Under the pieces are notes generated by a model. It had not been told where the DNA came from. It did no database searches and worked only from the letters and a program-made list of their open reading frames with translations. Below are positions 7,108 to 64,000 of a stretch of DNA of 64,000 bases, piece by piece; positions within the stretch are counted from its first letter, which is position 1, and each line of letters begins with the position of its first letter. The DNA is taken from positions 1 through 64,000 of IMG/VR virus record IMGVR_UViG_3300009370_001679; one strand, written 5' to 3'. This DNA comes from a virus. The position numbers and the translations under genes were made by a program.

Positions 7108-7122
7108 CTCATTTTTTATGTT

Positions 7123-7136
7123 TTTTGTGTATATAT
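7123..7136 (+). promoter_or_regulatory. Putative late promoter P3 (TTTTGTGTATATAT)
   Basis: TTTTGTGTATATAT lies in the 84-bp gap before the tail tube gene, about 56 bp upstream of its ATG. It is a full match to the shared motif and is preceded by a T-rich run. Its position before what should be one of the most abundant late proteins supports a promoter role. Confidence 0.65.
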
Positions 7137-7191
7137 TTATAACCAAGCCAGAGGTGGATAGTTATACATATATGTTAACAAGGAGACAATT

Positions 7192-8220
7192 ATGGCGCTG
7201 AATAATAGAATTTTCTATGCGTGTCAAGCAGTCGCAATCTGTAAAGAGGGTCATACCCCTTTAGCGGGATTGGGTGCAAACGCTGCGATGATAAAAGGTG
7301 TCCAGTCGGTTGGTATCACGAGTAACTTTACTCTTGACCAAGCGTTCGAGTTGGGCCAAATTGAAATCTACGAGAACTCGGAAGAAATTGCCGACATCGA
7401 AGTTACAATTGAAAAAGTTATTGACGGGGAGAAGCTTATTTATGGAGCGGCTTGTGGTAATAGTGTCAAAACTGACATGGTTGCAGCGGGCAAAAACAAA
7501 TGTGATATCTACTTAGGTATCTATACAGACGCAGATTCTACAACGGATAGTGATGCACCACTTCAAGTTGTAATGTGTTCTGGTATGTTTATTAGCTCTG
7601 TTTCTTACACTTATCCCTCTGATGGTAATGCTACAGAATCATGTTCCTTTGTTGGAAATGATAAATTCTGGACAGACAATACCGCCGGTGTTGTGCCAAA
7701 TCCAAAAACTAGTTACGGTTCTCCGGCAAGTGGTTTTGATGGTACTGACACTCCAGCATCTGGTCTTGTAAGAAGAACAAATGTTGATGTTGAAAACTGT
7801 ACCCTTCCTACAGCCGTGAAGTCACAATCTTCAGGTGCCGGTGGAAAGAGTCAGGGTCATCATATCGTAAGTATGAGTGCAAGTACTGACTTTGGTCGTG
7901 AAAGCATCATGGAACTCGGTAAATTTGGTCCTTATCACAGATACGCAGGCTTCCCAGTTGAAGTAACTAGCGAATTTGAGGTAACGGCAGCTAGTGGTGA
8001 CTTGGTTAATGTTTCAGGTAGTCATCCTAACCTTCCCGCCGTTGGCGAGCAGATTACACTCAAAGATGATGCCGGTACGGTTATTGACTTAGGTGCTAAG
8101 AACAAGCTATCTTCGGTTTCTTACTCTGGTGGTGACACTGGTGGTGGAAACGCAACAGTTACTTATTCTTACTCGACTTTCAATACGTTCAACATCAATG
8201 GTGGTGGAACTTACTGGTAG
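7192..8220 (+). CDS. Putative major tail tube protein
   Basis: This 342-residue protein has its own promoter motif and a strong AAGGAG ribosome site. The first 150 residues carry the pattern of tail tube proteins: a hydrophobic GVQSVGITSNFTLDQAFELG segment, then QIEIYENSEEIADIEVTIEK, which would be the strand-turn-strand that lines the tube, followed by a DIYLGIY strand. The C-terminal 90 residues (EFEVTAASGDLVNVSG onward) look like an added Ig-like decoration domain. Synteny agrees: chaperone-like genes and then the tape measure follow. No sheath gene precedes it. Identification is by pattern and order, not by database match. Confidence 0.6.
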   Translation: MALNNRIFYACQAVAICKEGHTPLAGLGANAAMIKGVQSVGITSNFTLDQAFELGQIEIYENSEEIADIEVTIEKVIDGEKLIYGAACGNSVKTDMVAAGKNKCDIYLGIYTDADSTTDSDAPLQVVMCSGMFISSVSYTYPSDGNATESCSFVGNDKFWTDNTAGVVPNPKTSYGSPASGFDGTDTPASGLVRRTNVDVENCTLPTAVKSQSSGAGGKSQGHHIVSMSASTDFGRESIMELGKFGPYHRYAGFPVEVTSEFEVTAASGDLVNVSGSHPNLPAVGEQITLKDDAGTVIDLGAKNKLSSVSYSGGDTGGGNATVTYSYSTFNTFNINGGGTYW

Positions 8221-9374: not shown

Positions 9375-9737
9375 ATGGATGATTACAATGCTTTACTGAA
9401 GCAGTCTCTTGATCTAAAAGGCAAGAGACAGGAAAAGTATAAAGAGCTATCGAAGGATAGACTGTATAAAATAGCTAAGAAAAAAATACAGACAACTATG
9501 ATCGGCGCTTTAGATACGATAGAGAAGAGCTTTGGTTTTTTGTGGGAATCTGATGAAGAATTAACTAATGAGCAAGTTCAACTTAAAGCTATTTTTGAAG
9601 ATGCTCGATCACAAATTCTAGATCGGGGAAATACCCAAATGAGAAACCTAGAGGCGGAAATGACGCAGTACGACATTTCTTGGAACAGACACACAATTAA
9701 TTTACCAGTAATAGAAAGAGGAGAAGATAATGAGTGA
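9375..9737 (+). CDS. Small helical protein upstream of tape measure
   Basis: This 120-residue charged, helical protein (many Lys, Glu, Gln) has an AAAGGA ribosome site and overlaps the following gene by eight bases. It has no cysteines or membrane segment. Pairs of overlapping small genes directly before the tape measure commonly encode tail assembly chaperones in siphophages. Here both frames have their own ribosome site and no programmed frameshift is needed. Function is inferred from position only. Confidence 0.45.
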   Translation: MDDYNALLKQSLDLKGKRQEKYKELSKDRLYKIAKKKIQTTMIGALDTIEKSFGFLWESDEELTNEQVQLKAIFEDARSQILDRGNTQMRNLEAEMTQYDISWNRHTINLPVIERGEDNE

Positions 9738-43194: not shown

Positions 43195-43646
43195 AGTATT
43201 TTCTCCATTTTCTCCATGTCCCAGTCATCAACGACACCTGCGACTTTTTTGTTAGAGTAGTTTTCAAACAGCTCCTTGTGGGAGTAGCTTCTAGTTATTA
43301 TATTAAGTTCCGGGTTTCTTACAACAGATGAAACATAGTTAAAGTCCATCGGCTTCCTTAACCATTCTAAGTCCCATAGATATAGGAATTTCTTGGCATT
43401 GTTCTTTGTCTTTATCATCATGTTCGCACAATCAACACTTGTCGCAATCGCGACCCCATCAAATTTAGCATAATAAGAAATATTCATACATGCGAAAAAT
43501 GGTGTTATTGGAGCCGCACTTAATGTGCTATAAAAACACATAGGTGAACAGTCCGTATTCTCCTTCATTTTATTAAAAGCCTTTATAAGGTAATAAGACT
43601 CTTGTGAGGTTGACAGTGTTTCAATTATCGCCGCTATCTTTTTCAT
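43185..43646 (-). CDS. Short glycosyltransferase-like protein, possibly truncated
   Basis: This 153-residue protein overlaps the upstream gene by four bases (ATGA). The pattern of alternating strands and helices, with YLWDLEWLRKPMDFNYVSSV and KKVAGVVDDWDMEKMEKIL, resembles the N-terminal Rossmann half of GT-B glycosyltransferases. The nucleotide-sugar-binding half is missing. It may be a remnant, an accessory subunit, or a small family of its own. Frame integrity and ribosome site suggest it is still expressed. The endonuclease gene beginning at its 3' end may have arrived at this boundary. Confidence 0.45.
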   Translation of the reverse strand: MKKIAAIIETLSTSQESYYLIKAFNKMKENTDCSPMCFYSTLSAAPITPFFACMNISYYAKFDGVAIATSVDCANMMIKTKNNAKKFLYLWDLEWLRKPMDFNYVSSVVRNPELNIITRSYSHKELFENYSNKKVAGVVDDWDMEKMEKILWT

Positions 43647-44404
43647 GCTAGTATTTTGTTCTTCCAGTAAGAGAATGACAATTTATTAAGTTTATATTCT
43701 TTGGTTTGCATATCCTTGTATTCTTTTTTAAGTCTATCCTCTGTGACCTCATTCCAGTCCTCGATAAACAACACGGGCAAACCTTCTAGGCACTCATGAG
43801 TTATGTATTTTTTAACAATAGGAATACACCCAAGATACAGAGCCTCCCATATTCTGTGTGTATCTATCCCGTTTCCTCTTGGGCACAGGCAAAAAGCATA
43901 CTCTCGCAAGTGATTGACATATCTTTCAAAATTTTGTCCGTTTATAGATAGCCCATAGTCTGCAAAAACTGTCCCTAAATGCAATTTGTGCAATAAATCG
44001 TGCCTCTCTTCATGTGTCGATGGGTTAAACTGGGTAAAAGCCCGCACCTTTCTATTGCCTAAAAGTGGGGCGTTTTTCATTATATTTCTTTTTTGAGGGT
44101 GCCAGTGGTTATTCTCTAATCCAATGGGCAGAGGGTGGACTCTAGGGTGCTTAAAACCGAGGTTTTGAGCATACCAAACAACTAAATTATCGGGCACTTT
44201 ACACTCTTTTATCTCTACATCACTATTATGTGTCAATAGCTTAAACTGATTGTCTGGATGCTTGAGAATAAAATCCAATACCTCTTCATGATTATCAGAG
44301 GCTGTGTACATTAAAGACACGCTTTTTTTGGGAATTTTTTCACCAAATTTAAAATCACATGTATTTTTAAACTTTTCTCCATCTACCTCATCTACAGGGT
44401 ACAT
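43643..44404 (-). CDS. Exostosin-like glycosyltransferase
   Basis: This 253-residue protein starts inside the upstream gene after a GCAGGAG. It contains the signature of the exostosin (GT47-like) family at residues 172-197: CLCPRGNGIDTHRIWEALYL followed by GCIPIV. In that family this segment binds the nucleotide sugar. The length is that of a compact single-domain version. It has no membrane anchor and would act in the cytoplasm on a glycan or protein acceptor. A second exostosin-like gene lies at 47153-47977. Confidence 0.8.
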   Translation of the reverse strand: MYPVDEVDGEKFKNTCDFKFGEKIPKKSVSLMYTASDNHEEVLDFILKHPDNQFKLLTHNSDVEIKECKVPDNLVVWYAQNLGFKHPRVHPLPIGLENNHWHPQKRNIMKNAPLLGNRKVRAFTQFNPSTHEERHDLLHKLHLGTVFADYGLSINGQNFERYVNHLREYAFCLCPRGNGIDTHRIWEALYLGCIPIVKKYITHECLEGLPVLFIEDWNEVTEDRLKKEYKDMQTKEYKLNKLSFSYWKNKILA

Positions 44405-45075
44405 TCATACACTCCTGCTGTGCTTAACTGGCTGCATAGATATGGGTTAGTGTGCCAAACCTTTAAGTTGTTTTCTTTAAAGTGATAGTTGAGTTCCCAA
44501 TCAATAGAAGTGCATATTGTGGTGAATGTGCCGAGAACCTTCTCTGCCGCACCTTTTGTTAGAGCATAGGAAGATGTGCAGTTCGTGGCGGGATGGTCAA
44601 CGAGCAATAGGTTTCTATAAGACCCGCAAACTCTATCGGCAACAAGGCTATGGTCAAAACCCCCACCAAAGAACAGGGCGTCATGGGGAACCCCTTCTGC
44701 TGTATGTAGAGAGTTAATAATATCTTTTTTGGTTCCGTGAAACACAACATCGTCTTCCAAAAAGACTGCATTATCATAATCAGAAGATACCAAGTCTTCC
44801 ATACATTTTATATGTTTTATACATAAGGATATATGCCCCATCGTTGGCCCTTTATACCCATCATAATCGACCTCCTCATACATACCTAAAGTTCTCTCTT
44901 TAAAGAGATCTAAATCAGTGGTACAATATGTGTCGATGACGGCTTCTGATAATTCATTTTTATCATAGTCAGTATACCATGTGGCCTCAATTTCCATCTC
45001 CTCTAGAATAGGCTCTAGCCTAGCTCGCCGCTCAACGTTCTTTTTGTAGTGCATAACATAAAATTTTGTCTTCAT
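44392..45075 (-). CDS. GT25-family glycosyltransferase
   Basis: This 227-residue protein matches the pattern of LPS-type GT25 enzymes: an N-terminal strand with MHYKKNVERRARL, GHISLCIKHIKCME at 80-93 and a catalytic LEDDV at 106-110. The DD would bind the metal and the nucleotide sugar. The C-terminal region (DWELNYHFKEN onward) fits the acceptor side. Such enzymes often add galactose or other hexoses to lipopolysaccharide, although the donor here cannot be read from sequence. The start codon follows the preceding stop directly (TAAATG). Confidence 0.75.
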   Translation of the reverse strand: MKTKFYVMHYKKNVERRARLEPILEEMEIEATWYTDYDKNELSEAVIDTYCTTDLDLFKERTLGMYEEVDYDGYKGPTMGHISLCIKHIKCMEDLVSSDYDNAVFLEDDVVFHGTKKDIINSLHTAEGVPHDALFFGGGFDHSLVADRVCGSYRNLLLVDHPATNCTSSYALTKGAAEKVLGTFTTICTSIDWELNYHFKENNLKVWHTNPYLCSQLSTAGVYECTL

Positions 45076-46233
45076 TTATACCATCCTGTTGATTATAGAA
45101 CAAATTCTCTTAATGTCTTTATACCTTAGGTCTTGGTGATTGGGAATATACATTCCATATTTTTCCACAATGTTCGCATTGACCATTGGCTCTTCCCCAT
45201 AGAGGTTGACCCATGCTGGCTGAAGACCCATGCTACCAGCTACAAGAGGGCGACACTCAATTTTTTTATTGTTTAACTCCCTGTAAACTTCTTGCTTATT
45301 TTCCAAGATAAGAGGAAAACCCATGTTAGATATAACCTCTTGAGTTCTCTCCGGCTTTGGAAACCAGATTTTTTGATTTAAGTTATTATAATAGTCGTAA
45401 TAGTTTTCCTCGCGCGTTCTTGATATATGGTTTATTTTAGGTATCTGGTTAAGACCTATGAAAGCTTGTAGGTCTGTTGCCCTCAAGTTGAATCCTGCGT
45501 AGTAAAATTTATATAGCGAATCAAAGTCGTCCACTCCATATTTCTGTCTATATTTTTCTTTAGAGTCTTGGCTTAGGTCTCTATCCCAACCGTGACTTCT
45601 AATCATCTTTACAACGTCCGCAAAATCGCTATTATCGGTACAAACCATCCCTCCCTCAATAGTTGAGATATGATGGCCAAAGTAAAACGAAAATGAGCTA
45701 GCGAAACCAAACGTGCCAAGCATCTTGCCGGACGTTCTAGATCCTAAGCTTTCGCAGGTATCTTCAATTACCAGTATGTCATTCTGGTTGCATATTTTGA
45801 TAATCTTCTCTATAGAGGAGTCAAGTCCTAATACATGTACGAGCATAACTGCGGCAGGCTGCTCTTTAATTATAATCTCCGATAGATGATCGACATCCAG
45901 CCCTAAGTTTTTCATATTGCAGTCACAGAGTATCGGGTCTAAACCAAACTGTATAGCAGGAAAGATAGTTGTTGACCAAGAAACCTGCGGAACTACTATC
46001 TTGGAGTTTCTAAGAAGCCCCATCTGCTTGAGGGCGGACACTATTAAAAGGTTTGCCGAAGAACCAGAATTACAATATATGGAATGTTTACACCCTAGAT
46101 ATTCGGAGAATTTTTCCTCGAACTCTACTGTCTTAGCCCCTTTTGTTAATTGAGGCATTTTTCTTAGCCAGCCGATAAGAGAGTTTATATCCCTTTCGTC
46201 TATAATGTCTGAACATAGTTTAATTGGTTTCAT
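45076..46233 (-). CDS. colD: ColD-like PLP-dependent 3-dehydratase (3-deoxysugar synthesis)
   Basis: This 385-residue protein belongs to the DegT/DnrJ/EryC1/StrS fold: NSGSSANLL at 55-63 for the cofactor phosphate and IEDTCESLG at 156-164 for the pyridine ring. Where aminotransferases have the PLP-binding Lys, it has FYFGHHISTIEGG, with His187-His188. That His is the mark of the dehydratases ColD (GDP-4-keto-6-deoxymannose to its 3-deoxy product) and RfbH. Length is close to ColD (388) and lacks the iron-sulfur region of RfbH. In the colitose pathway ColC follows, and a homologue of it (51182-52168) is present here. Substrate is inferred. Confidence 0.8.
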   Translation of the reverse strand: MKPIKLCSDIIDERDINSLIGWLRKMPQLTKGAKTVEFEEKFSEYLGCKHSIYCNSGSSANLLIVSALKQMGLLRNSKIVVPQVSWSTTIFPAIQFGLDPILCDCNMKNLGLDVDHLSEIIIKEQPAAVMLVHVLGLDSSIEKIIKICNQNDILVIEDTCESLGSRTSGKMLGTFGFASSFSFYFGHHISTIEGGMVCTDNSDFADVVKMIRSHGWDRDLSQDSKEKYRQKYGVDDFDSLYKFYYAGFNLRATDLQAFIGLNQIPKINHISRTREENYYDYYNNLNQKIWFPKPERTQEVISNMGFPLILENKQEVYRELNNKKIECRPLVAGSMGLQPAWVNLYGEEPMVNANIVEKYGMYIPNHQDLRYKDIKRICSIINRMV

Positions 46234-47156
46234 AGCTCTAGCACCGTTTTGAATTTCTCCAATAGGAACTCTGGGTTAGCACAGTCGGGAATTTTGTTGT
46301 CTGGAAAGCATGACTGACTCTGAATCTCTTGGAACAGGTCAGGTTTATTATATATACCAAGAACGGCCTCGTTTAGTTCATCTATATTGTTAAATCTTCT
46401 AGCATGAATGAAGGCGCCCTCATTAAATTCTTCACCCACATCTGGACAGCCCCAATATATTGGTATTACCCCTTTAGATAGTGGATGTATTAGTTTTTCA
46501 GTTATCCACCCGTCAGCCTCACCATTATCAAAACATAGGTTAAACTTAAAGTCATTAATATACTCTAGCTTGTCTTTTTCATCTCCTCCTATGGAGGGCA
46601 TATTTGTAAAGGCTCGACCTCTACTTTCTACCAAAAGGCCGTTCTCTACGCCGAACCCTATAAACTCAGGGTACACTTCGGCTCTCAGCGCCATATCGTT
46701 ATTTGTTAATACACAGCAGAACTTTTTCTTTTCCGTGTAGTCGGGAGGATTTAGCAACAACTCTGGTGAAACAAGAAAGGCTTGGTTCCTTCCTTGAACA
46801 TATTGGTTTCCAAACCAGTCTACATACATAGCCCATAGTGGTATTCGCACGTTTCTATTATCGTCAAACTTGCAGGACGAAAAAGAGAAATCGCAGCTAC
46901 TGTAGTCTGGGTCTCCCGTTCTATCAATTGACTCTACGAGCCAGTGGATAATCTTAGCTCGCCCCTTCATTCCATCCGTTAGGCTTGCTGCCGACGGAGA
47001 CTGATGATCTGGCGGAGAGCTCTGGCAAACGATAATGTCTGGATTGTTTTCATCAACAATAACATTATATTCTAATGACAGGGTGTTGGTGATTATATTG
47101 TCATGCTTAAAGAAGCCGCCCCACATGTTTTTAAAATCTATTTTTATCTGCTTCAT
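46230..47156 (-). CDS. GT10 fucosyltransferase-like enzyme
   Basis: This 308-residue protein carries the GT10 alpha-1,3-fucosyltransferase core: FKFNLCFDNGEADGWITEKL at 203-222, then GVIPIYWGCPDV at 229-240. It is nearest to the bacterial (Helicobacter-like) type, where the same region binds GDP-fucose. The usual FEN is FDN here, a conservative change. It overlaps the ColD-like gene by four bases (ATGA), which links transferase and donor synthesis. Fucosyltransferases can accept the related GDP-colitose, so either sugar could be used. Acceptor unknown. Confidence 0.85.
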   Translation of the reverse strand: MKQIKIDFKNMWGGFFKHDNIITNTLSLEYNVIVDENNPDIIVCQSSPPDHQSPSAASLTDGMKGRAKIIHWLVESIDRTGDPDYSSCDFSFSSCKFDDNRNVRIPLWAMYVDWFGNQYVQGRNQAFLVSPELLLNPPDYTEKKKFCCVLTNNDMALRAEVYPEFIGFGVENGLLVESRGRAFTNMPSIGGDEKDKLEYINDFKFNLCFDNGEADGWITEKLIHPLSKGVIPIYWGCPDVGEEFNEGAFIHARRFNNIDELNEAVLGIYNKPDLFQEIQSQSCFPDNKIPDCANPEFLLEKFKTVLEL

Positions 47157-47977
47157 TTTTCAATCCTTTTAAACATATATTCCGCAAGCCTTTCTGGAGA
47201 ACAAAAGTGTTCGTACCACAGCTTGGCGGCATTAGAATGGTATTCCAACACCTCTTCTTCTCTTCCTAAGATGAAGTCTACTGTTCTAGTCAGCTCTGCC
47301 CATCCAGCGTCCATTGGGAACGCCGGAGCTGCGTTATACATTGGGGTTTGTGGCATCCCCACATTTATTACTATACACCCCGCGCACATAGCTTCAAAAA
47401 ATCTAAAACTTTCCTTGCTACCTGAGCCAATGGGCACCAACGCTATCTTGGTATCATTCATCACATCGCAGTAGCTGTCTATAGCGTCTCCGTTATTCCA
47501 GCCCTCATACCACAAGACATGACTATTGTAATTTGGTCGCTCGCCATGTAATCTGTCTACAGCCTGTCTAAAGTTCACCCTAGTATAGGGGTCAAACTGG
47601 CCCATCCAAGACCAGTCTCTTGTTCTTTTTGTTATCGGAATATCCTGACTAGCAAACCCTTCGAGGCAACCTAAGGGCAATGGGCTAACTCTATTTATGT
47701 TCTTTACCGATGTCTGATCTGTGGGTGTTCCCATAGGTGCGTACTGCTTGAATATGTGCACATACGAGTCATCCTGTGTTTGGTCAGGAACATTGTGTGC
47801 CTCATCTGATGTAGATATTAATATTTTTGGATACTTTGTTTCTTTCGGCATCTCATGATTCCATACCTGCAAGATAAAAGAATAATCATTTTTCAGCTTC
47901 TTGGATAGTATCTCGACAGCCTCTTGATACACATAGCTGTCCGGATTTTGTTCAATAAGGTTAATTATTTCAGACAT
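47153..47977 (-). CDS. Second exostosin-like glycosyltransferase
   Basis: This 274-residue protein has the family segment at 177-203: KIALVPIGSGSKESFRFFEA followed by MCAGCIVI, where Ser/Lys/Glu and the following helix meet the nucleotide sugar. The N-terminal half is alpha/beta with DWSWMGQFDPYTR before the donor half, as in GT47-like enzymes. It overlaps both neighbours by a few bases. It differs clearly from the exostosin-like gene at 43643, so the two are probably not recent duplicates. Confidence 0.75.
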   Translation of the reverse strand: MSEIINLIEQNPDSYVYQEAVEILSKKLKNDYSFILQVWNHEMPKETKYPKILISTSDEAHNVPDQTQDDSYVHIFKQYAPMGTPTDQTSVKNINRVSPLPLGCLEGFASQDIPITKRTRDWSWMGQFDPYTRVNFRQAVDRLHGERPNYNSHVLWYEGWNNGDAIDSYCDVMNDTKIALVPIGSGSKESFRFFEAMCAGCIVINVGMPQTPMYNAAPAFPMDAGWAELTRTVDFILGREEEVLEYHSNAAKLWYEHFCSPERLAEYMFKRIEK

Positions 47978-48833
47978 CTATAAAACCCTCCAAGTTTTTA
48001 CTATGTACATGTAGATTAAAAATTGGGTGTTTCATTCCATCTGACCCAATGGCATATGGCTTATCTGTAAACTCTGCCCCTATTTTATTATTTCTAAGTA
48101 GCGCGCCTATCATATGTTTAGGGTCTGTAAACCCAGATTCATGCCCGTTATTTGTACCGCCTAGATATTGACCATAGGAGCCGGGATCAAACACGAAGTC
48201 CTTTTCTCCAATTTCAGGTACTGTCTTGAAGGCTTCAAACATCTCACACTTGTGAGCCACATGCAGGAGCGACATTTCGCTTACGTGATCAAATCCAAAC
48301 TTGTTTATCAGTACCTGCTCCCCAAGAGCCAGCACTTCGTTTAAAAACTTGCATAGATAAACAATGAGCACAGGCATTGGGATGTGGACAAAAGCAAACG
48401 TAACTTGATCGACCGACATTGGTGTAAGGCTTATCCTATTAGACTGTGGAACGCCGTCAAGGTCGTGGTATAAAAGAACGTCATTTTCAAAGTGAAAGAC
48501 ATCGTACAGTCTATTCTTGTCTATATACTCGCTGAGATAGTATATTCTTTCACAGGTTCTATGCCAGAACAGCTCAGGGCTAGGATGGGTCGTGTTAGGC
48601 GTTCCGTGTCTTTTAAACCAGCATAGATTGTTAAACTCTTTAAGGGTGGTGCCATCCTTTAGTGAGTCCTGAGGGACCCAGTTTACATCAATATCTTTAA
48701 AAAATGGCTGGTCATCTTTACATATAAAATCTATAGTAACGTCAGGATTTGTCTTGCGAGCTTGCGCTAGTGAAATTTGTGTATATGCCGGTAATTCTCC
48801 GCCATCTGAAATAAATGTGTTAACTATTCTCAT
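47970..48833 (-). CDS. GT-A-like glycosyltransferase
   Basis: This 287-residue protein starts with a strand typical of GT-A folds (RIVNTFISDGG). It has FHFENDVLLYHDL at 113-125, where the E-N-D plays the part of a DxD-type metal site. A later NLHVHSKNLEGF may close the active site. I do not recognise a numbered family, but similar proteins occur in large-phage glycosylation clusters. Donor and acceptor are unknown. It overlaps the exostosin-like gene by eight bases. Confidence 0.6.
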   Translation of the reverse strand: MRIVNTFISDGGELPAYTQISLAQARKTNPDVTIDFICKDDQPFFKDIDVNWVPQDSLKDGTTLKEFNNLCWFKRHGTPNTTHPSPELFWHRTCERIYYLSEYIDKNRLYDVFHFENDVLLYHDLDGVPQSNRISLTPMSVDQVTFAFVHIPMPVLIVYLCKFLNEVLALGEQVLINKFGFDHVSEMSLLHVAHKCEMFEAFKTVPEIGEKDFVFDPGSYGQYLGGTNNGHESGFTDPKHMIGALLRNNKIGAEFTDKPYAIGSDGMKHPIFNLHVHSKNLEGFIDV

Positions 48834-48834
48834 C

Positions 48835-49611
48835 CTAAAATATACTCCCTTCTTTAGGTTCTATTTTCTTGCTAGAGTCTCTGAAGTATGAGTGTTCAAG
48901 CTTTCCGTCAATAGCCTCCACATACCAATTGTATTTTAATATCTCTTTCGTGGTACTCTCCCGCCTCTCGTCCTCGATAGCAGAAAATATTTTATGTTCA
49001 TCGTTAGCATATTTAAACTGTAGGTTATTCTTTTCGATCTCTTCGTCTGCTATAAAAATCGCATCTACTCCTGATGCCGCCACTAAAGTGTACCCCATCC
49101 AGTTCAATAGATCTTTTGCTGCCGTTATGCTGCAACCATAGCGGCTGTCGCCAGACCAGACCCAATCTTTTCGGTGGATTTGTATTATAGTGCGAGGAGG
49201 AGGGATTTCCGGATTAAACTCTATGGATACCACTCTAGGTTTAAATTTTTCCAAATCCACGCTTCCAGCTACCCAGAAATCCTCTCCATCAATATCTATG
49301 GATAAAAAATCAAATACTCTCGGAACCTTGTACTTTTCTAGCAGCTCATTTATGTTTTCTGCGGAAACAAACTCATTTTTTAGATCATAAATAGCCTCTG
49401 GGTTTTCTGTGCCGTCCATTAGTAAGCCGTCAAACCCTAGAGTTTTTCTTAGGTAGATAGAGTTACCCCGTCCTGTATCTGTGCCATTTGATCCAAACTC
49501 AACAAAATACTTGTTGGTAACACCTATTAGTTCAAAAATTTTCTCCAAAATACCATCTTGGTAAAATTGTGAAAAAACACGCTTCTCAAAATTAAATAAA
49601 TTTATTTCCAT
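48835..49611 (-). CDS. FkbM-family methyltransferase
   Basis: This 258-residue protein has the SAM-binding glycine loop FVEFGSNGTDTGRGN at 36-50, GLLMDGTENPEA (the acidic residue that would hold the ribose) at 62-73, and LSIDIDGEDFW at 103-113, which is the FkbM/Methyltransf_21 signature. Members methylate sugar hydroxyls in glycolipids and O-antigens. With glycosyltransferases on both sides, O-methylation of a glycan is the likely role, for example capping a chain. It has no membrane segment. Confidence 0.8.
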   Translation of the reverse strand: MEINLFNFEKRVFSQFYQDGILEKIFELIGVTNKYFVEFGSNGTDTGRGNSIYLRKTLGFDGLLMDGTENPEAIYDLKNEFVSAENINELLEKYKVPRVFDFLSIDIDGEDFWVAGSVDLEKFKPRVVSIEFNPEIPPPRTIIQIHRKDWVWSGDSRYGCSITAAKDLLNWMGYTLVAASGVDAIFIADEEIEKNNLQFKYANDEHKIFSAIEDERRESTTKEILKYNWYVEAIDGKLEHSYFRDSSKKIEPKEGSIF

Positions 49612-49612
49612 G

Positions 49613-50335
49613 CTATGTCCAGCTATGAATTGTAAAAAGGTCTACGTCTTCAGTTCTATTTTCGTCAACTATTTGTTTTATCTCTTCTCCAGACCAAGGT
49701 TCGTTACTGTACCTTCCGTACATTTTGGTTTTAGTGAGCTGTGAGCCATAAAGATTCGGGTGGTTTTTTGTGATATAATTACCATAGGTCTCAAATTCTG
49801 ACAGGAGGCAGTCATCAGACATAAGTGCATTAATAGCAAGAACCAAATGATCTTTGTTTGGTATCATTTCTGCGCATATATTTTTATCAAAAACCATGAA
49901 GTCGTTAATAAATGTATGGTCAACCTGCCTGCTTAACCCAAAATAAAGCTCCATAAAGTTAAAGTATGGCTCATGGTGTTGATCTCTATCGCTAACAAAA
50001 AAGTTTGGTTTGCCGTCTTTAAATATATCAATAGGCCTGTTGAATATGAGGTCAGAATCTACACATAGATAAAGGTCGTTTTCCGTAAAGTCTTGAAACA
50101 GTTTGACAAGCTGTTGGTATATCCAGTTAGACCGCCTGTATTTTATAGTGGCTTTATTTATTTGGACTGCATCTTCGTCCTTGATGCCCGTGGCAATACT
50201 TCCCCCTAGACCATCTGGAGTTATTACATATATGTTTTCTGGTGATGGGTTAAGATGTTCTAAGCATGAATTTAAACAAAACTGTAGCTTTACATAATCT
50301 TTAGGGTGTGATGGTATTATAAGATCGTATTTCAT
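49613..50335 (-). CDS. DUF6492-like glycosyltransferase
   Basis: The start is set at the ATG at 50335, which overlaps the stop of the upstream gene (ATGA) and has AAAGGGG before it, giving 240 residues. It has KYDLIIPSHPKDY at the start, then WIYQQLVKLF at 71-80 and the metal-site CVDSDLIFNRP at 91-101, the pattern of the DUF6492 GT-A family. Sugar specificity is unknown. The coupled start implies it is made in step with the gene upstream. Confidence 0.7.
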   Translation of the reverse strand: MKYDLIIPSHPKDYVKLQFCLNSCLEHLNPSPENIYVITPDGLGGSIATGIKDEDAVQINKATIKYRRSNWIYQQLVKLFQDFTENDLYLCVDSDLIFNRPIDIFKDGKPNFFVSDRDQHHEPYFNFMELYFGLSRQVDHTFINDFMVFDKNICAEMIPNKDHLVLAINALMSDDCLLSEFETYGNYITKNHPNLYGSQLTKTKMYGRYSNEPWSGEEIKQIVDENRTEDVDLFTIHSWT

Positions 50336-51204
50336 TCTAACCCCTTTAATATATCTATCTCTTGGTGAGGACAAGCAATATTGCCAAACGGAATCTTTGA
50401 GAGGGATAATCTTTTTCCCTGCTTGAAATATTTACATAGCTCTTCCGAGGAATACGAATAGGTGTCGCCATTTCTGTTTTGTATGGTTTCTTGAACTCTG
50501 TTATTTGGGCTATTCACAACGCAACTCTCTCTTGGGGCCGCCATCATCGGTGGAAGATCAAAGAAGAACCTTTGTAGCTTTCCTTCAAACTCATTGGGTG
50601 TTTGCTGCCAAGGGTTTTTTGTGTTGTATTTATTTAGGACGTCTAATTCTTCACAGTATGGCTCTAGCGTACTCCTCTCAAATATATGGCCGTCTACAGA
50701 AAGGGGGTACGCCCAATAGCCTCCTACAGGGATTGCTGTACGATTCCATATTATGAACTGACCCTTTCCTCTTGACCCTACCTGAGTAGGCATAGCGTCC
50801 TGCCTCATGATTCCATCTCCGTAGTCTCTAAGTGTCGTATTTTTACCCAACCTAAGGGAGATGCACGAATAGAGAGACTCATTACTAAACAGGGTATCAA
50901 TATCGTCAATATTGAATTCAACATACCTATATATTACGTCGTCATCCGTGAAAAAAGAAATATATTTAGATTTCGCGGAAGAAACTAAAGACCTAATATC
51001 TTCAAATATTGAAGACTTCTGTTTTACAAAATCTACCGCTGGATGCTCGACAGATAGTTGCGTATAGGTATCCTCATGGTCTTCGCTGGATGTAGCATAT
51101 AACACAATAACCTTAGAGCAGCACCTCCAGTTTTTGTTAATACTTTTGAGCGTAAGGTCAAGCTGTAGGGCTCTATCTTTACTAAATACTATCGAGGTAA
51201 GCAT
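50332..51204 (-). CDS. GT-A glycosyltransferase (GT2-like)
   Basis: I choose the ATG at 51204 because GAGGAG lies just upstream. It overlaps the end of the GDP-fucose-synthase gene by 23 bases and gives a 290-residue product. The first strand SIVFSKDRALQLDLTLKS and the metal site FFTDDDVIYR (DDD at 87-89) fit GT2-like GT-A enzymes. The C-terminal half is less conserved and may bind the acceptor (MMAAPRESCVVNSPNNRVQE). Donor unknown. Confidence 0.65.
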   Translation of the reverse strand: MLTSIVFSKDRALQLDLTLKSINKNWRCCSKVIVLYATSSEDHEDTYTQLSVEHPAVDFVKQKSSIFEDIRSLVSSAKSKYISFFTDDDVIYRYVEFNIDDIDTLFSNESLYSCISLRLGKNTTLRDYGDGIMRQDAMPTQVGSRGKGQFIIWNRTAIPVGGYWAYPLSVDGHIFERSTLEPYCEELDVLNKYNTKNPWQQTPNEFEGKLQRFFFDLPPMMAAPRESCVVNSPNNRVQETIQNRNGDTYSYSSEELCKYFKQGKRLSLSKIPFGNIACPHQEIDILKGLE

Positions 51205-52168
51205 CAAACTCCTCTGCATTGGTCTTGAACCATTCTATAGTTTTCTCTAGCCCCTCGTATAGGCCCACAGTAGGGCTGTATCCAAGCCATTCTTTTGCTC
51301 GGTTAATGCTCAAGCACCTTCTAGGCTGACCATCAGGGTATTCAGAGTTAAATCTTATTTTACCGTCATAGCCCATAATTTCAGCAATAGAAAGGGCTAG
51401 ATGTTTTATCATCACCTCTCCCCCTGTCCCAATGTTGATAGGTTCTGCGGATACGTCTTTCTCCAAAGACAGCCTAATAGCTTCTGCGCAGTCATCTATA
51501 TAGAGAAACTCTCGGCTTGCCTTGCCTGTTCCCCAAATCTCCACAGCATCTTCTTTTTTGTAAAAACTCTTATTGTTTTTAACGTCACGCATTGCCTTAT
51601 GGAACTTAAGTATCAGGGCGGGTATAACATGACTGCTAGCAGGATCAAAATTGTCTTCCGGCCCGTACATATTTACCGGAATCAGGTTAACACCATTGAA
51701 GTCATACTGCTCTTTGTATGACATTATTAATTGCATCAGGCTTTTCTTTGCCACTCCATAAGGGGCGTTTGTTTCTTCTGGGTATCCGTTCCATATATCT
51801 TCTTCTTTAAATGGGACAGGAGTAAACTTTGGGTATGAGCACACCGTTCCAACCATGATAAACTTTTCAACAGAGCCTAGCTTTCTGCACGCCTCAATTA
51901 GGTTAGCCCCCATAATGAGATTATTATACATATATAATCCCGGATTTGCTTTATTGGCTCCAATACCTCCGACGGTAGCGGCTAGGTGAACAACAGCAAC
52001 GGGCTTAGCATACCCTAGTAAGTCATCGACCTCTGATGCTATTGTTAAATCATAACTACTACCTACGGCGACAATGTTTTTATATCCGTTTTCTTTAAGG
52101 TTTCGATATACGGCTTTACCTAAAAACCCAGTACCTCCAGTAACTAAAACTGATTTTTTCTTAAACAT
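51182..52168 (-). CDS. fcl: GDP-L-fucose synthase homologue (or GDP-colitose synthase)
   Basis: This 328-residue extended SDR has TGGTGFLG (10-17) for NADP, VGTVCSYP with Thr108 and Cys110, APYGVAKK with Tyr137 and Lys141, and SHVIPAL with His180. These correspond to the catalytic Ser/Thr, Cys, Tyr, Lys and His of GDP-fucose synthases (Fcl/WcaG), which epimerise and reduce GDP-4-keto-6-deoxymannose. ColC, which makes GDP-colitose from the ColD product, is a homologue of Fcl, and the ColD-like gene lies 5 kb away in the same operon. Sequence does not tell the two apart. Gmd is not in the window, so the substrate may come from the host or another phage gene. Confidence 0.85.
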   Translation of the reverse strand: MFKKKSVLVTGGTGFLGKAVYRNLKENGYKNIVAVGSSYDLTIASEVDDLLGYAKPVAVVHLAATVGGIGANKANPGLYMYNNLIMGANLIEACRKLGSVEKFIMVGTVCSYPKFTPVPFKEEDIWNGYPEETNAPYGVAKKSLMQLIMSYKEQYDFNGVNLIPVNMYGPEDNFDPASSHVIPALILKFHKAMRDVKNNKSFYKKEDAVEIWGTGKASREFLYIDDCAEAIRLSLEKDVSAEPINIGTGGEVMIKHLALSIAEIMGYDGKIRFNSEYPDGQPRRCLSINRAKEWLGYSPTVGLYEGLEKTIEWFKTNAEEFDAYLDSI

Positions 52169-53207
52169 CTATATGCTCCTTGGCTTGATTCCAGCCTTTT
52201 ATAATATTTTGAGCTTCCTGTTCATATCCGAAATAGCCTAGTATTTGAGCAACTCGGTGGAAGCTAGTATGGTTGTCCAAAATGAACTTCCTGCCTGTGA
52301 TTGCAATTTCTTTTCTCTCTTCCTCATGAGACAGATAATAATCAATCTTCTCTTTAAAGTCGTCTGGTGAATCAGCAAAAACAACACCGTTGCCATTGAA
52401 GATTTTACTTATCCCTTCTATATTATCAGAGATACAGAACCCTCCAGCACATAATATTTTGAAGCATCTCTCATTAATATCAAACCCGAATTCGTGGGCG
52501 TGGGGCTCGCTTAGGTTTGGGCAAATTTTTGCAGAGATAAATAAATCTTTGGCTTTTTCATCTGCTAAATATCCGCAGTATTGGTTGGCGTTAGGCCAAG
52601 GTTGATTTCCAAATATTTTGACATTATATCTACCAGTGGGATACAGTAGGGGGGTAAGGTACTTATCTATAATAATACCTTTATATGGCCAGTACCCGCC
52701 AAGAAAACCTATGTCGCAAGAAAGAGCTTCGTCAAACGCCGGAGTAACATACTCATGTACATTTGCGCACATTATGAGCGATTTAGCGTCAACACCTATC
52801 GACTTGAACTTTGAGTGCGTTTGGTCTACGGCATACTGGCTATAATGGATATGTACAAAGTCTGGCTTGCCCGTCTCGTCTTTAAGTTTCTTTAGTATGT
52901 CTTTTTCTTTCTCTGAGGAATACAGGACATTAAATCTAGGGTCTGCCTCAAAGTCTCCCCAATCTCCGGCTCTTAGCCCGACTTTTAAGTGAGGTCTTTC
53001 GTATATACATTTAATTAGGGGCGAATCTAAATTGTAAGACTGTCCTAAGAAAATATCTGGCTCGAAAGTATCAAACGCATCAAAGGCTGAAACCTCTTTG
53101 CAATGCCAAAAAGAAGCCTCAATTCCACACTCATTAAATGCCCTTAACCAAGACTGTCTCTGAAAGTAATGGGCATGCAGTCCATCGCTAGCAATTAAAA
53201 TTTTCAT
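52161..53207 (-). CDS. CgeB-like GT-B glycosyltransferase
   Basis: This 348-residue protein begins KILIASDGLHAHYFQRQSW, the usual GT-B opening. The second half has IGFLGGYWPYKG, INERCFKILCAGGFCISDN and a late helix DFKEKIDYYLSHEEERKEIA, matching the pattern of CgeB-like enzymes and their glycosyl-transferase 1_2 C-terminal domain. The E-R-x-F-K-x-x-A/C segment binds the donor nucleotide. No membrane segment. It overlaps both neighbours by a few bases. Confidence 0.75.
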   Translation of the reverse strand: MKILIASDGLHAHYFQRQSWLRAFNECGIEASFWHCKEVSAFDAFDTFEPDIFLGQSYNLDSPLIKCIYERPHLKVGLRAGDWGDFEADPRFNVLYSSEKEKDILKKLKDETGKPDFVHIHYSQYAVDQTHSKFKSIGVDAKSLIMCANVHEYVTPAFDEALSCDIGFLGGYWPYKGIIIDKYLTPLLYPTGRYNVKIFGNQPWPNANQYCGYLADEKAKDLFISAKICPNLSEPHAHEFGFDINERCFKILCAGGFCISDNIEGISKIFNGNGVVFADSPDDFKEKIDYYLSHEEERKEIAITGRKFILDNHTSFHRVAQILGYFGYEQEAQNIIKGWNQAKEHIDV

Positions 53208-53898
53208 TCTTTATATCCTTCATGCAGTCTATTTCAACGATAGACATGTTGTCTGGCTCGTAAACCTTTATAGTTCCGCCTCTACTTATTATAGAGTTAA
53301 TAACCTCAAAAGCCAACAGTGTTTTTGTTTCATTGGCTGCTTTTGAGCAAATTTGCCGCAGTATAGCAAACTCTTTTCCCGTCAAGAAAGCGATCTGGCA
53401 CCACTTGGTGTCTAGTCCGTAGGATAATATGCTTGCCTTGTCGTTGACAACAGTAACCCCAACCTCTTTCTCTCTCATCTTATTCTTGTTATCTACAACG
53501 ATAAATGACCTAGAAAAGTCTGCTGAGTTGATGGTTTTAATATCAAAATATAAATCCCCATGAAAGAACAAAACACTATTACTGGTTATGTTGTTTACTA
53601 TTAGCCTTAGGGTTTCAAAAGGCCCAGTCGTATCGTGTAGTTGGTTTTCTACAAACCTGACTTCGCCGGGAAATTTTTTAAGTATTCTGTTCGCTTCTAC
53701 CCCTATACCAACCACAATCTCTGGCTCATGAAAAACCGAATTCACTGTATCCAACTGGTGTTGCAATAAAAACTTTGGCCCCACTTTAAGTAAGGCTCTA
53801 GGCTCATGGGACTTTATCCTACTGCCTGTTCCGGCAGATAAAATGCCGACACTGGTATTAAGAGGTTCCTTTTTTATTTTTTGTGTAAATCTACTCAT
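53188..53898 (-). CDS. Sugar nucleotidyltransferase
   Basis: This 236-residue protein has the NTP-transferase signature SAGTGSRIKSHEPRALLKVG at 21-40 and a second metal-site strand VLFFHGDLYFD at 109-119. The length and the single Rossmann-type domain fit small nucleotidyltransferases such as LicC or the GlmU N-terminal domain. Such enzymes make NDP-activated sugars or CDP-choline-like donors. Which donor is unknown. Here it would supply an activated substrate for the neighbouring transferases. Confidence 0.8.
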   Translation of the reverse strand: MSRFTQKIKKEPLNTSVGILSAGTGSRIKSHEPRALLKVGPKFLLQHQLDTVNSVFHEPEIVVGIGVEANRILKKFPGEVRFVENQLHDTTGPFETLRLIVNNITSNSVLFFHGDLYFDIKTINSADFSRSFIVVDNKNKMREKEVGVTVVNDKASILSYGLDTKWCQIAFLTGKEFAILRQICSKAANETKTLLAFEVINSIISRGGTIKVYEPDNMSIVEIDCMKDIKNENFNC

Positions 53899-60533: not shown

Positions 60534-62087
60534 TTACGCTTGAGACACTTTGTTAATGACCAAACTTGTATCTTTTTTGCTGGATACTTGACCAAAGGCA
60601 ACAATTGTATTGCCTTCATATAGAATTTCCTTGAATTTGCCATATGTCTCAGGAAATATAACGGCAGAGTCAAGGGTTGCTGTAGAGTCTTCCACCGACA
60701 AGAAAGCCATAATCTGGCCCGGATTTTTACCGTTCTTTGTGGCATATTCTCGCAAGGAGTTTATATGGATTGCTACGTTTACCTTGCCCGTTCTACCGTT
60801 AACTATCTCTTTACATGTACAATTAACCGCCGCACTTTGTATGGCATCAGTTTTGGAGAAGGTTAGCGCCACGCCCATATATTTGTTTTCTGCATCTGCA
60901 ATCCAGTTAGGGTGGTCAGTAAGGTCAAACGGCGGAGACTCGATAATATTTCGGACATCAAACACTTTGATTAGTCTGTTAGAATTTATCTTTAGGTTAT
61001 TTATCATGTTATCTATAGCGGCAATTATAGAATCGTCTGGATTGTAGTTATTAGACAGCCATTCTCTTTCTCTAATGGACAAGTCTCTATAGCTCTTGTA
61101 TTCATAAAGAAGGGCATTTCTATGTTTAGTATTATTTTTACCATTAAAAGCGCCAACAGTAATGAGTGCCTCAATGCATGTCTTGTTTACTTTTAGACCT
61201 AAATTAAATAGAGTGTCTAACCAAGTGAACTCAGCAAAAGTTTTGCCTAGCTTTTCTTCTAGCTCTGGAACCAAATCCAACATCTTCTTGGTTTCAGCCG
61301 TACCAACACCTTTAATGTTTGTAATGCCAAAGTATATATTGCTTTCTGCCGCAGTAAAGGATGGATAGAAGTGCCCTAGTCTGGGAGGTAGGGTCTCTAT
61401 GTCATATAGCTTTGCGTCAGACACAAGCTCTTTGATTTCCACCTGTTGGTCGGGCTTTCTTTCTGAGTGATTGAGGTAAGACTCAAAGAACCTCATCTTT
61501 CTGTGAACCTTACAGTATGCACTTCTGTAGGCGTTAACAGCATAAGAAACAGCATGAGATTTATTAAACGCATAGCGATTAGATTTTTCAATCCAGCCAA
61601 AAATTTCTTCCGCTATCTCTTTATTAAGACCCTCAGTGCTTGTCACTCCAGACAGGAAAGATTTTTTAACCTTTGCCATCAAGCCCGCTTTCTTCTTACC
61701 GATAGCCTTACGGAGGTTGTCCGCTTCTTTTAGATCGAATCCAGCAAGCTGCTGGGCAATTTTCATGGACTGCTCTTGGTATACAAGAACCCCATAGGTT
61801 TCACTAAGGATTGGCTCAAGGCTCGGATGAAGATATTTGACTTCATCAATACCAGCTTTCCTATCTACGTAGTGCTGAGTCATGGACTTGCCCTCAGTAA
61901 AAGCCTTTAGACAGCCGGGCCTAATCAATGAAATAAGAGCCGACAGCTCTTCTATGCTACGAGGCTTAACTCGCCTCGCCCAAGACCTACCAAGTTGAGA
62001 CTCTAGCTGGAATACCCCTTTGGTTCTTCCGTCGCAAATCAAGTCCCACACTTTGTCATCATCAAAATCGTCAATATTAAATATCAT
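60534..62087 (-). CDS. dnaE: DNA polymerase III alpha subunit, C-terminal half (split)
   Basis: This 517-residue protein starts at an ATG that overlaps the sulfotransferase stop (ATGA), with GGGAAGAAG upstream. It aligns by eye with the second half of DnaE: GVFQLES (24-30), LISLIRPG, YGVLVYQEQSMKIAQQLAGF (98-117), RKAIGKKK (126-133), FNKSHAVSYA (174-183), a helix-hairpin-helix IKGVG (258-262), and an OB-like end. It thus supplies fingers, DNA-binding and OB parts. It lacks the PHP and palm domains, which lie on a separate gene at the right edge of the window. The tau-binding C-terminal region of bacterial DnaE is not evident. Confidence 0.9.
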   Translation of the reverse strand: MIFNIDDFDDDKVWDLICDGRTKGVFQLESQLGRSWARRVKPRSIEELSALISLIRPGCLKAFTEGKSMTQHYVDRKAGIDEVKYLHPSLEPILSETYGVLVYQEQSMKIAQQLAGFDLKEADNLRKAIGKKKAGLMAKVKKSFLSGVTSTEGLNKEIAEEIFGWIEKSNRYAFNKSHAVSYAVNAYRSAYCKVHRKMRFFESYLNHSERKPDQQVEIKELVSDAKLYDIETLPPRLGHFYPSFTAAESNIYFGITNIKGVGTAETKKMLDLVPELEEKLGKTFAEFTWLDTLFNLGLKVNKTCIEALITVGAFNGKNNTKHRNALLYEYKSYRDLSIREREWLSNNYNPDDSIIAAIDNMINNLKINSNRLIKVFDVRNIIESPPFDLTDHPNWIADAENKYMGVALTFSKTDAIQSAAVNCTCKEIVNGRTGKVNVAIHINSLREYATKNGKNPGQIMAFLSVEDSTATLDSAVIFPETYGKFKEILYEGNTIVAFGQVSSKKDTSLVINKVSQA

Positions 62088-62761
62088 TCAACTTCTTCCC
62101 ACCTTGCTGTAAATTCCTTAAATTCCTTTTGTAGCCCTTTTATCGTCTGATTATCAAATATATTTTGAGCGGTTTTAGGTTCTGGATTTTGAATATGGGC
62201 GCCATGAATCCCAGACTTGTCATCAATACAGCTAAAATCATTACCGATTTTTGCTTGAATACCCCGATGAGAACTTATGGAAAAATCTCTTTCTATTAAA
62301 TCTCTACGCTCTTTATCTATGGTGCTATTGAAACGATTCTCTAGCTTTTTAAAAATATAGTCAAAGTTATTCCAAAAGGATTCATACTTAAGAATAACAA
62401 CATCTTTACCATCATCGCGAATAGAGTCAACAAACTCCCAAAAACTACGATGATGGCCTAAACTCTCATGGCAAACAGGCATATGTTCTTCTTGCTTCTT
62501 TTTTGAAATTCTCACAAGAGAAGCCGCTGTATCTATAGGGTTTCTTATAGTGCATATAGCAGGTAACTCTTTGGTGGGAAAATGACTAACCCCCTGAACC
62601 CTACATCCAAATACCCAAATATTATAGTCGATTGGATGGAAGTAGTGAACTTCAGAAAAAACATTTCTTAATATTCTATTTACTAACGTTGACCCGCTAC
62701 GAGAGATTGACCACTGTAAAACCGTTTTCTCTATGATAGGATTAAACGTAGAATTCGCCAT
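62084..62761 (-). CDS. PAPS-dependent sulfotransferase
   Basis: I choose the ATG at 62761 over an in-frame TTG at 62779, giving 225 residues. Residues 20-27 are SRSGSTLV, the 5'-phosphosulfate loop that binds PAPS. Residues 73-81 are RNPIDTAAS, the 3'-phosphate-binding strand and helix of carbohydrate and protein sulfotransferases. It would place sulfate on a sugar hydroxyl or tyrosine, most likely in the phage glycan cluster. It is unusual in lying between the two halves of the split polymerase, and the start overlaps the exonuclease end by 20 bases. Confidence 0.8.
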   Translation of the reverse strand: MANSTFNPIIEKTVLQWSISRSGSTLVNRILRNVFSEVHYFHPIDYNIWVFGCRVQGVSHFPTKELPAICTIRNPIDTAASLVRISKKKQEEHMPVCHESLGHHRSFWEFVDSIRDDGKDVVILKYESFWNNFDYIFKKLENRFNSTIDKERRDLIERDFSISSHRGIQAKIGNDFSCIDDKSGIHGAHIQNPEPKTAQNIFDNQTIKGLQKEFKEFTARWEEVE

Positions 62762-63431
62762 TTGCAAATGCTTTCTCAAACTTAGTCTTCTGTGAAATGT
62801 TTCTTTGAAACTTCAGGAACTTAATGAGGATATTTGCCGTATCCTTTACGTCTTGAAGGGCGTCGTGAGCGTTCTCTTTGCTCTCTTCTGGGAATCCCAT
62901 ATACTCTCGCAGGAAGTCCATGCTGATACTCTTAAAGTCTCGATTGTTTTCTGTCCAAGAGAATACCATATCCATCAAGTCGAGCTTGAAGATCGGATTG
63001 AAGATAGACTGCCGACCTCTAGTATCGGTAGTGCCGTACATCTCGCACATTCTCTGAGCAATAGGTAAGTCAAAACCAATAATATTATATCCAGCGGCTA
63101 TAGGTGCAGTATAAGACGAGCCTCTGAAGTTGAACTTATTACAGAAGTCCTCAAACTTTTTCCATACTGTTTTTGGCAATGGGGCTTTAGCAAGAGCTTT
63201 TCTGTTCTTGCCAGTAATCTCTAACGCTTCCTCCTCTAGTGGGTCAACTCCGGCTTCAATAGCTTTCTTATCGTCAATGATAGGTCTAATCTCACTATTA
63301 AAAATTCCGCCCGGCTGAATTGTTAGCTTACGCCCGTGTAGAGCGATAGCCGCAATCTGTGTTGGTTGTGTTGTGAGCGGGTTTCTAGAGCCTGTCTCAA
63401 AGTCAAACACAATTATATCTCTAAAATTCAT
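62742..63431 (-). CDS. DEDDh 3'-5' exonuclease (DnaQ-like)
   Basis: This 229-residue protein has Exo I FDFETG (Asp10, Glu12), Exo II YNIIGFDLPI (Asp121) and Exo III HDALQDVKDTA (His189, Asp194), the DEDDh set. These are the catalytic residues of DnaQ/ExoX-type nucleases. With the polymerase halves on both sides, it most likely proofreads for the phage DnaE, a function that bacterial DnaE also takes from a separate epsilon subunit. It overlaps a small protein by four bases. Confidence 0.9.
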   Translation of the reverse strand: MNFRDIIVFDFETGSRNPLTTQPTQIAAIALHGRKLTIQPGGIFNSEIRPIIDDKKAIEAGVDPLEEEALEITGKNRKALAKAPLPKTVWKKFEDFCNKFNFRGSSYTAPIAAGYNIIGFDLPIAQRMCEMYGTTDTRGRQSIFNPIFKLDLMDMVFSWTENNRDFKSISMDFLREYMGFPEESKENAHDALQDVKDTANILIKFLKFQRNISQKTKFEKAFANGEFYV

Positions 63432-63655
63432 TTAAGTGATCCTTTTAATTCAACAAACTTGTTAACAGCTTCATCTATGTCTTTAAAGATTTCGCTATAC
63501 TTACAACGAGGGTTATCTGAGTGTACCTGATAAGCACCAGTAACATACCCTTTATATTGTGGTAGAAAATGTCTCAAATCGCACAAGCTTATGCTTTTAG
63601 ATTCAATGGCGCAGCCAGAAAAAATGACCGACTTGTAATCCCGCTTAATACTCAT
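63428..63655 (-). CDS. Small hypothetical protein between polymerase halves
   Basis: This 75-residue protein has AAGGAG upstream (inside the end of the N-terminal DnaE fragment) and ends in the next gene by a four-base overlap. It has alternating strand and helix patterning (YKSVIFSGCAIESKSISLCD, then DIDEAVNKFVELKG) with no known motif. Its place between the polymerase fragment and the exonuclease suggests a replication accessory role, but nothing in the sequence shows one. Confidence 0.45.
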   Translation of the reverse strand: MSIKRDYKSVIFSGCAIESKSISLCDLRHFLPQYKGYVTGAYQVHSDNPRCKYSEIFKDIDEAVNKFVELKGSLK

Positions 63656-63657
63656 TC

Positions 63658-64000
63658 TTACTCCTTAATTTCCATGATTTTACTAAGTAGGTCAATACCC
63701 AGTATATCAAATTTAACATGTCCTTGATCTTCTAAATCGCCCATTTCAAAACCGGCGATGAGATTTTTACTTTTATCTTTAACCATAGGACAAACTTTAT
63801 TTAGTTTATTTGCTGATATAATAACTCCAGCAGCGTGTTTCCCTTGAGATTTTATCGTACCTTCAATGTCAATTGCTTGCTGAAAAATTGCTGCGAACGG
63901 GCCAACTAGATCATTATCACTATTTAGCTTACACCACCTATCTAGAACTTCTGGCTGATAAGCAAGTGTCCATCGAATTAGTGAGCCTTCACCGCTTTCC
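63658..64000 (-). CDS. dnaE: DNA polymerase III alpha subunit, N-terminal fragment (end of gene, partial)
   Basis: On the minus strand the frame entering at the right edge reads 113 residues to a TAA at 63658-63660. The translation contains KSQGKHAAGVIIS and FEMGDLEDQGHVKFDILGID, the palm segments of DnaE that lead to the third catalytic Asp (D555 region in E. coli, KFDFLGL). The gene then stops after LLSKIMEIKE, before the fingers. The matching second half starts at 62087. The rest of PHP and palm, with the first two catalytic Asp residues, would lie outside the window. The stop is a clean TAA and the next gene follows after two bases. Confidence 0.85.
   Translation of the reverse strand, partial: ESGEGSLIRWTLAYQPEVLDRWCKLNSDNDLVGPFAAIFQQAIDIEGTIKSQGKHAAGVIISANKLNKVCPMVKDKSKNLIAGFEMGDLEDQGHVKFDILGIDLLSKIMEIKE

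Follow-up and report, generated by a model that had tools for sequence, protein, structure and literature searches.

A phage operon with a ColD-type 3-dehydratase and a candidate route to GDP-L-colitose

The DNA analysed here, called the window, comprises positions 1-64,000 of the virus record IMGVR_UViG_3300009370_001679 (G000), which is linear, 78.6 kb long, metagenomic and incomplete. A first-pass annotation had proposed that it carries part of a pathway for GDP-colitose, a 3,6-dideoxy sugar, based on a ColD-like gene, a GT10 glycosyltransferase gene and a homologue of GDP-fucose synthase, a short-chain dehydrogenase/reductase (SDR). All three genes were confirmed as complete open reading frames (ORFs) on the minus strand, inside a tightly packed glycosyltransferase operon:

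45076..46233, minus strand: predicted ColD-type GDP-4-keto-6-deoxymannose 3-dehydratase, dependent on pyridoxal/pyridoxamine phosphate (PLP/PMP); 385 amino acids (aa), catalytic His187, DegT Pfam match 1.2e-67
46230..47156, minus strand: GT10 (fucosyltransferase-fold) glycosyltransferase, candidate colitosyl/fucosyltransferase; 308 aa, PF00852 6.8e-13
51182..52168, minus strand: GDP-fucose-synthase/ColC-type epimerase-reductase (SDR), candidate ColC; 328 aa, Epimerase Pfam match 2.4e-55

Compared with solved structures, the DegT protein of the window matched ColD best (203.8 bits, 4e-59), followed by E1/RfbH (147.8 bits, 4e-42) and perosamine synthase (132 bits). The E. coli colD reference was located by its position in O55 strain CB9615, a distant DNA search for it having given no match. 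The window protein contains the motif FGHHISTIEGG, in which G186-H187-H188 aligns with S187-H188-H189 of O55 ColD. According to this alignment, and to the deposited ColD mutants with Lys or Asn at that site, it is the first histidine, His187, that stands in for the PLP lysine. The replacement of the lysine by a His-His pair, as first annotated, is therefore real, but the residue had been misnumbered: His188 is the second histidine, and the one aligned with ColD His188 is His187. A histidine occupies this position in 176 of 179 aligned homologues.

Among characterised 3-dehydratases, ColD acts on a GDP-sugar, has no iron-sulphur (Fe-S) cluster and uses PMP regenerated by glutamate, whereas E1 and SpnQ act on CDP- or dTDP-sugars with a [2Fe-2S] cluster and a partner reductase (PMC8987622). 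In the 179-homologue alignment, ColD and the window protein both lack three of the four RfbH/SpnQ-type cysteine ligands and share the fourth (Cys160 in the window protein). A FastTree phylogeny grouped E. coli ColD and the window protein in one clade (164 members, support 0.98), leaving the Fe-S proteins RfbH and SpnQ outside. Within this clade it belongs to a mostly viral subgroup, whose members are 42-62% identical to it (80 sampled loci). Relatives are encoded in at least 574 viral stretches.

The neighbourhood of these genes bears on the nucleotide sugar used. Gmd is encoded within 3 kb in 48 of the 80 viral ColD-like loci, and an Fcl-like SDR in 50. Neither was found within 3 kb at any of 80 viral loci that carry the Fe-S RfbH of phage S-H68 and served as a matched control; as these loci are close relatives of one another, they do not count as 80 independent cases, yet the difference is plain. 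A second control, with lysine-type DegT genes, comprised few and mixed loci. Gmd was detected at an E-value of 1e-115 or better in 31 of 50 viral records with a ColD-like gene, and RfbF (glucose-1-phosphate cytidylyltransferase) above 22 bits in 0 of 50 related viral records. On bacterial and archaeal plasmids (Haladaptatus, Chelatococcus, Sulfitobacter and Streptomyces), ColD homologues likewise occur in operons with gmd and fcl, and in cyanophages S-CAM7 and ACG-2014f the gmd, fcl, ColD-like and GT11 genes are consecutive. Because of this context, above all the Gmd linkage seen against the RfbH control and the lack of RfbF, the GDP route is strongly supported. We conclude that 45076-46233, judged from its sequence, is a full-length predicted ColD-type 3-dehydratase under purifying selection (see below). 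Phylogeny, missing Fe-S ligands and Gmd/Fcl linkage support the first proposal of a C3-dehydratase for a GDP-4-keto-6-deoxy sugar, and the protein very probably acts on a GDP-sugar.

Two observations concern relatives of this protein. In the nearest bacterial relatives (L029-L047, e.g. L035:6315-7962), a small RmlD-like SDR and a GT2 gene often directly precede ColD, and in some of these loci gmd-fcl follows it; a different dideoxy sugar is perhaps made there. The S-CAM7 protein (L021; KU686212.1 164022-165155), annotated CDP-4-keto-6-deoxy-D-glucose-3-dehydrase, lacks the RfbH cysteine cluster and is encoded inside a gmd-fcl operon; its GenBank name is probably wrong.

A search for gmd in the rest of the genome, suggested at the outset, found none in the 78.6-kb record. 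A sister phage, IMGVR_UViG_3300025133_005699 (G002, 105.8 kb), whose ColD is 96% identical to that of the window, carries a gmd gene (6171-7337, 388 aa) a short way upstream of the one for the terminase large subunit at 9381. In its product, the S-E and Y-K motifs of E. coli Gmd are intact (T133-E135-Y157-K161), and there are two insertions. Record G001, identical to G002 over the 17 kb compared, is not independent. G000 ends in a repeat-rich gene matching approximately 18-22 kb of G002, and its record does not include the terminase arm. No terminase match was found in G000, G001, G006, G007 or G008, so the absence of gmd from these records is uninformative. The 105-kb record of a divergent phage, L109, has no strong Gmd and no terminase match either. 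G002 holds Gmd, the GDP-fucose-synthase/ColC homologue, ColD and GT10; the only SDRs detected were Gmd and the Fcl-like protein in G002, and the Fcl-like protein in G000. In the phage records there was no ManC/HddC-type nucleotidyltransferase (PF00483), and manB and manC were not found. It had been supposed that Gmd and ManC come from the host or from other phage genes. Both are indeed absent from the 78.6-kb record, but the sister phage encodes Gmd itself, on its terminase arm, so that only GDP-mannose must come from the host. G002 also has a short DegT-family protein of 218 aa (L016:612-1268), compared with the usual 360-400 aa.

The SDR of the window keeps the catalytic set of the GDP-fucose-synthase family (S/T-C-Y-K-H, here T-C-Y-K-H). 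It is closer to E. coli Fcl (35% identity, 207 bits) than to E. coli O55 ColC (32%, 152 bits), and forms its own small clade with the SDRs of L109, L181, L066 and L075. At most other viral ColD loci, the Fcl-like SDR is of another kind, branching outside the group that unites Fcl and ColC. The suggestion that the GDP-fucose-synthase homologue serves as ColC thus keeps its epimerase/reductase residues in its favour, but not the similarity scores. The SDR may still work like ColC; we take it as a candidate by parsimony, because no other reductase is encoded.

The GT10 protein matches H. pylori FucT (5.6e-17) and has the GT10 C-terminal domain with the N..TEK donor motif (FNLCFDNGEADGWITEK, versus FNLCFENTQGYGYVTEK in FucT). 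The motif FNLCFDN......TEK is common to both, with a Trp at the position of FucT Tyr246. A 4-bp overlap joins the GT10 and ColD genes in each of three divergent phages, namely that of the window, L109 (GT10 and ColD 57 and 62% identical to the window's) and L111 (65 and 60%). In E. coli, the donor of the colitosyltransferase WbgN is GDP-colitose, with GDP-fucose tolerated (PMC12723683), which shows that a single enzyme can work with either. WbgN carries the annotation alpha-1,2-fucosyltransferase in E. coli O55, and gave no significant match to the window GT10, for which GDP-colitose is a putative donor.

Between G000 and the sister phage, the ratio of non-synonymous to synonymous changes (dN/dS) is 0.05 for ColD, 0.09 for the SDR and 0.10 for GT10, the last from only 7 changes. 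Such low values mean that the three genes are maintained, and L109 retains most of the block from the SDR to ColD. Synonymous divergence from the sister phage is 0.03-0.12 across 46230-50374 (GT10 to DUF6492), compared to ∼0.3 in ColD and the SDR. Given this drop, and a gene at 50332-51219 that is only 51% identical between the sister phages, recombination has taken place inside the operon.

From the enzyme families, the catalytic residues, the gene linkage and the gmd of the sister phage, we infer the substrates, the ColC role of the SDR and the donor of the GT10 as follows. Gmd, whose gene is present in the sister phage and probably also in the unassembled arm of G000 (failing that, in the host), would convert host GDP-mannose into GDP-4-keto-6-deoxymannose. 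The ColD-type enzyme, its PMP loaded from glutamate, would strip the C3 hydroxyl with His187 as acid/base, and ammonia would be hydrolysed off, yielding GDP-4-keto-3,6-dideoxymannose. The single Fcl/ColC-type SDR would then invert C5 and reduce C4, giving GDP-L-colitose (3-deoxy-GDP-L-fucose). Finally, the co-translated GT10 would move colitose onto a glycan made by the surrounding glycosyltransferases, with an acceptor that may lie on either the virion or the host surface.

On balance, we favour with moderate confidence the view that these phage genes form a branch leading to a GDP-3,6-dideoxyhexose, with GDP-L-colitose as the most likely one, by this full route. Several points weigh against it: the identity to ColD is only 32%, the record of the window has no gmd, L109 has no strong Gmd, the SDR resembles true GDP-fucose synthase slightly more than it does ColC and forms a separate clade, and at one bacterial locus, L075, a ColC-type SDR and one of the window type both occur around ColD. 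As the SDR is nearer to Fcl, colitose itself is something that we infer, and GDP-fucose is a live alternative. The SDR could make GDP-L-fucose for the GT10, while the ColD product is reduced to a different 3,6-dideoxyhexose by another reductase, from the host. Such a split use would agree with the SDR scores, with the 5 kb separating the SDR from ColD, with GT10 being a fucosyltransferase family, and with the extra small SDR beside ColD in some bacterial relatives. We consider it rather unlikely, as neither G000, with one SDR, nor G002, with only Gmd and the Fcl-like protein, encodes a second reductase, and the GT10 gene overlaps ColD, not the SDR. A GDP-6-deoxy-4-keto-heptose substrate, which in Campylobacter jejuni HS:5 gives rise to a 3,6-dideoxyheptose, appears improbable. 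Despite sharing 62-67% identity with ColD, the C3-dehydratases of C. jejuni use heptose (PMC10440746), so sequence cannot decide, and a nucleotidyltransferase gene lies nearby; however, the phage records have no HddC-like (PF00483) enzyme, the SDR is of the bifunctional Fcl type instead of a separate epimerase and reductase, and the standard neighbours are a Gmd-type dehydratase and Fcl.

The remaining explanations have very little to recommend them. That the enzyme is of RfbH/E1 type, from a CDP-sugar pathway, or of SpnQ type, from a dTDP-sugar pathway, is very improbable and largely refuted. Its top listed NCBIfam model is RfbH, but far under the cut-off (221 of 423 bits), and the S-CAM7 homologue bears the CDP-sugar label; the CDP-sugar/RfbH assignment was rejected on the missing Fe-S ligands, the tree position outside the Fe-S proteins, the RfbF count and the viral RfbH control (Gmd near 0 of 80 true RfbH genes against 48 of 80 ColD-like ones). 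Equally hard to sustain, if not harder, is an ordinary sugar 4-aminotransferase similar to perosamine synthase: the fold is that of DegT/DnrJ, and lysine-type DegT enzymes do occur in phages (L004, L006), but this candidate was discarded since histidine replaces the internal-aldimine lysine in nearly all homologues. Least probable of all is that the genes are decayed, or are remnants of host DNA in a wrongly binned contig, as might be feared for a metagenomic, linear and incomplete record. Against this stand a dN/dS of ∼0.05, the recurrence of the block in divergent phages, and the genes flanking it (DNA polymerase III, RecA-like and large structural genes). Chance similarity is countered by ∼200 bits to ColD, the near-identical protein in the sister phage and the conserved His.

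The other genes of the operon and its surroundings are as follows:

43643..44404, minus strand: exostosin/RXYLT1-type glycosyltransferase
44392..45075, minus strand: GT25-type glycosyltransferase adjoining the ColD gene
47153..47977, minus strand: glycosyltransferase-like protein, same operon (weak Glyco_trans_1_2 / RXYLT1_C match)
47970..48833, minus strand: operon protein without Pfam match, kept in L109 (51%)
48835..49611, minus strand: FkbM-type methyltransferase (possible sugar O-methylation), not in the L109 stretch
49613..50374, minus strand: DUF6492 protein of the operon
50332..51219, minus strand: protein of the operon with no Pfam match, either swapped or diverging fast between the sister phages
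52161..53207, minus strand: glycosyltransferase (Glyco_trans_1_2)
53188..53898, minus strand: MobA-like nucleotidyltransferase (NTP_transf_3), kept in L109

Outside the sugar block, DNA polymerase III alpha seems to be split into two ORFs (window 60534-63999 and L020:535-5236), with a DnaQ-like exonuclease between them. A weak sulfotransferase-like gene also lies between these ORFs in G000 only, the sister phage being without it.

DUF1501 genes are present in G000, G002 and L111, and the related record G006 has a DUF1559 pilin-like gene (L195:9690-10622). DUF1559 pilin-like genes are typical of Planctomycetes. With one genome sampled per group, matches to the phage DUF1501 protein numbered 171 in a planctomycete (best 58% identical), 14 in a verrucomicrobial genome, 1 in Chryseobacterium and 0 in a Nocardioides-labelled assembly. 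Because of these matches and the DUF1559 gene, a planctomycete is our best guess for the host. The phage DUF1501 proteins encoded at L020:17335-18549 (G000 77334-78548) and L019:2974-5475 (G002) have a twin-arginine-like start (MKRREFLTSTAG); DUF1501 genes stand in tandem in G002, and are also found in L111. The initial interpretation thus holds in part. The GDP-sugar C3-dehydratase is supported, but the remodelling of host O-antigen lipopolysaccharide to block superinfection is not, since a planctomycete is the host suggested by the DUF1501 and DUF1559 genes.

Among the closest known systems is the colitose pathway of E. coli O55 (gmd, colD/WbdK, colC, WbgN), which shares Gmd, an Fe-S-free His-type ColD, an Fcl-family SDR and a fucosyltransferase-like transferase. 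Here the genes are phage-borne, ColD is only 32% identical, the SDR is nearer to Fcl, a GT10 replaces the alpha-1,2-fucosyltransferase-type WbgN, and manB/manC are missing. Cyanophages S-CAM7 and ACG-2014f likewise combine gmd, fcl, a ColD-like gene and a fucosyltransferase in a phage, but with GT11 in place of GT10 and a ColD only 33-35% identical to the window's; their ColD-like genes are annotated as hypothetical, aminotransferase or CDP-sugar dehydrase. Phage gmd and fcl genes are also described for GDP-fucose in cyanophages P-SSM2 and S-SCSM1 (PMC9602691), where a colitose branch is not mentioned. The C. jejuni HS:5 pathway to GDP-3,6-dideoxyheptose (PMC10440746) has a GDP-sugar C3-dehydratase of the ColD family, but differs by its heptose substrate, separate epimerase and reductase, and HddA/HddC genes. 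E1/RfbH and SpnQ share the DegT fold with His for Lys, and differ by their [2Fe-2S] ligands, partner reductase and CDP- or dTDP-sugars. A search of the open-access literature turned up no account of a colitose pathway in a phage. The pathway is therefore known, and what is new is its phage setting, the Gmd of the sister phage and the pairing with GT10.

A colitose-type pathway appears to be widespread but under-recognised in viruses. As a tentative extension, the large, mostly viral ColD branch, often with its own Fcl/ColC-like reductases, might make GDP-L-colitose in many phages, with the GT10 of the present phage group being a colitosyltransferase used for coating the host surface or the virions. 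Were this so, phages too would make 3,6-dideoxy sugars, which are regarded as signatures of bacterial O-antigens, and hundreds of viral proteins called 'aminotransferase' or 'CDP-sugar dehydrase' would have to be re-read as GDP-sugar 3-dehydratases. The phage sugar as receptor mask or virion decoration would become directly testable, and these viruses would be a source of new ColD, ColC and possibly GT10 colitosyltransferase enzymes.

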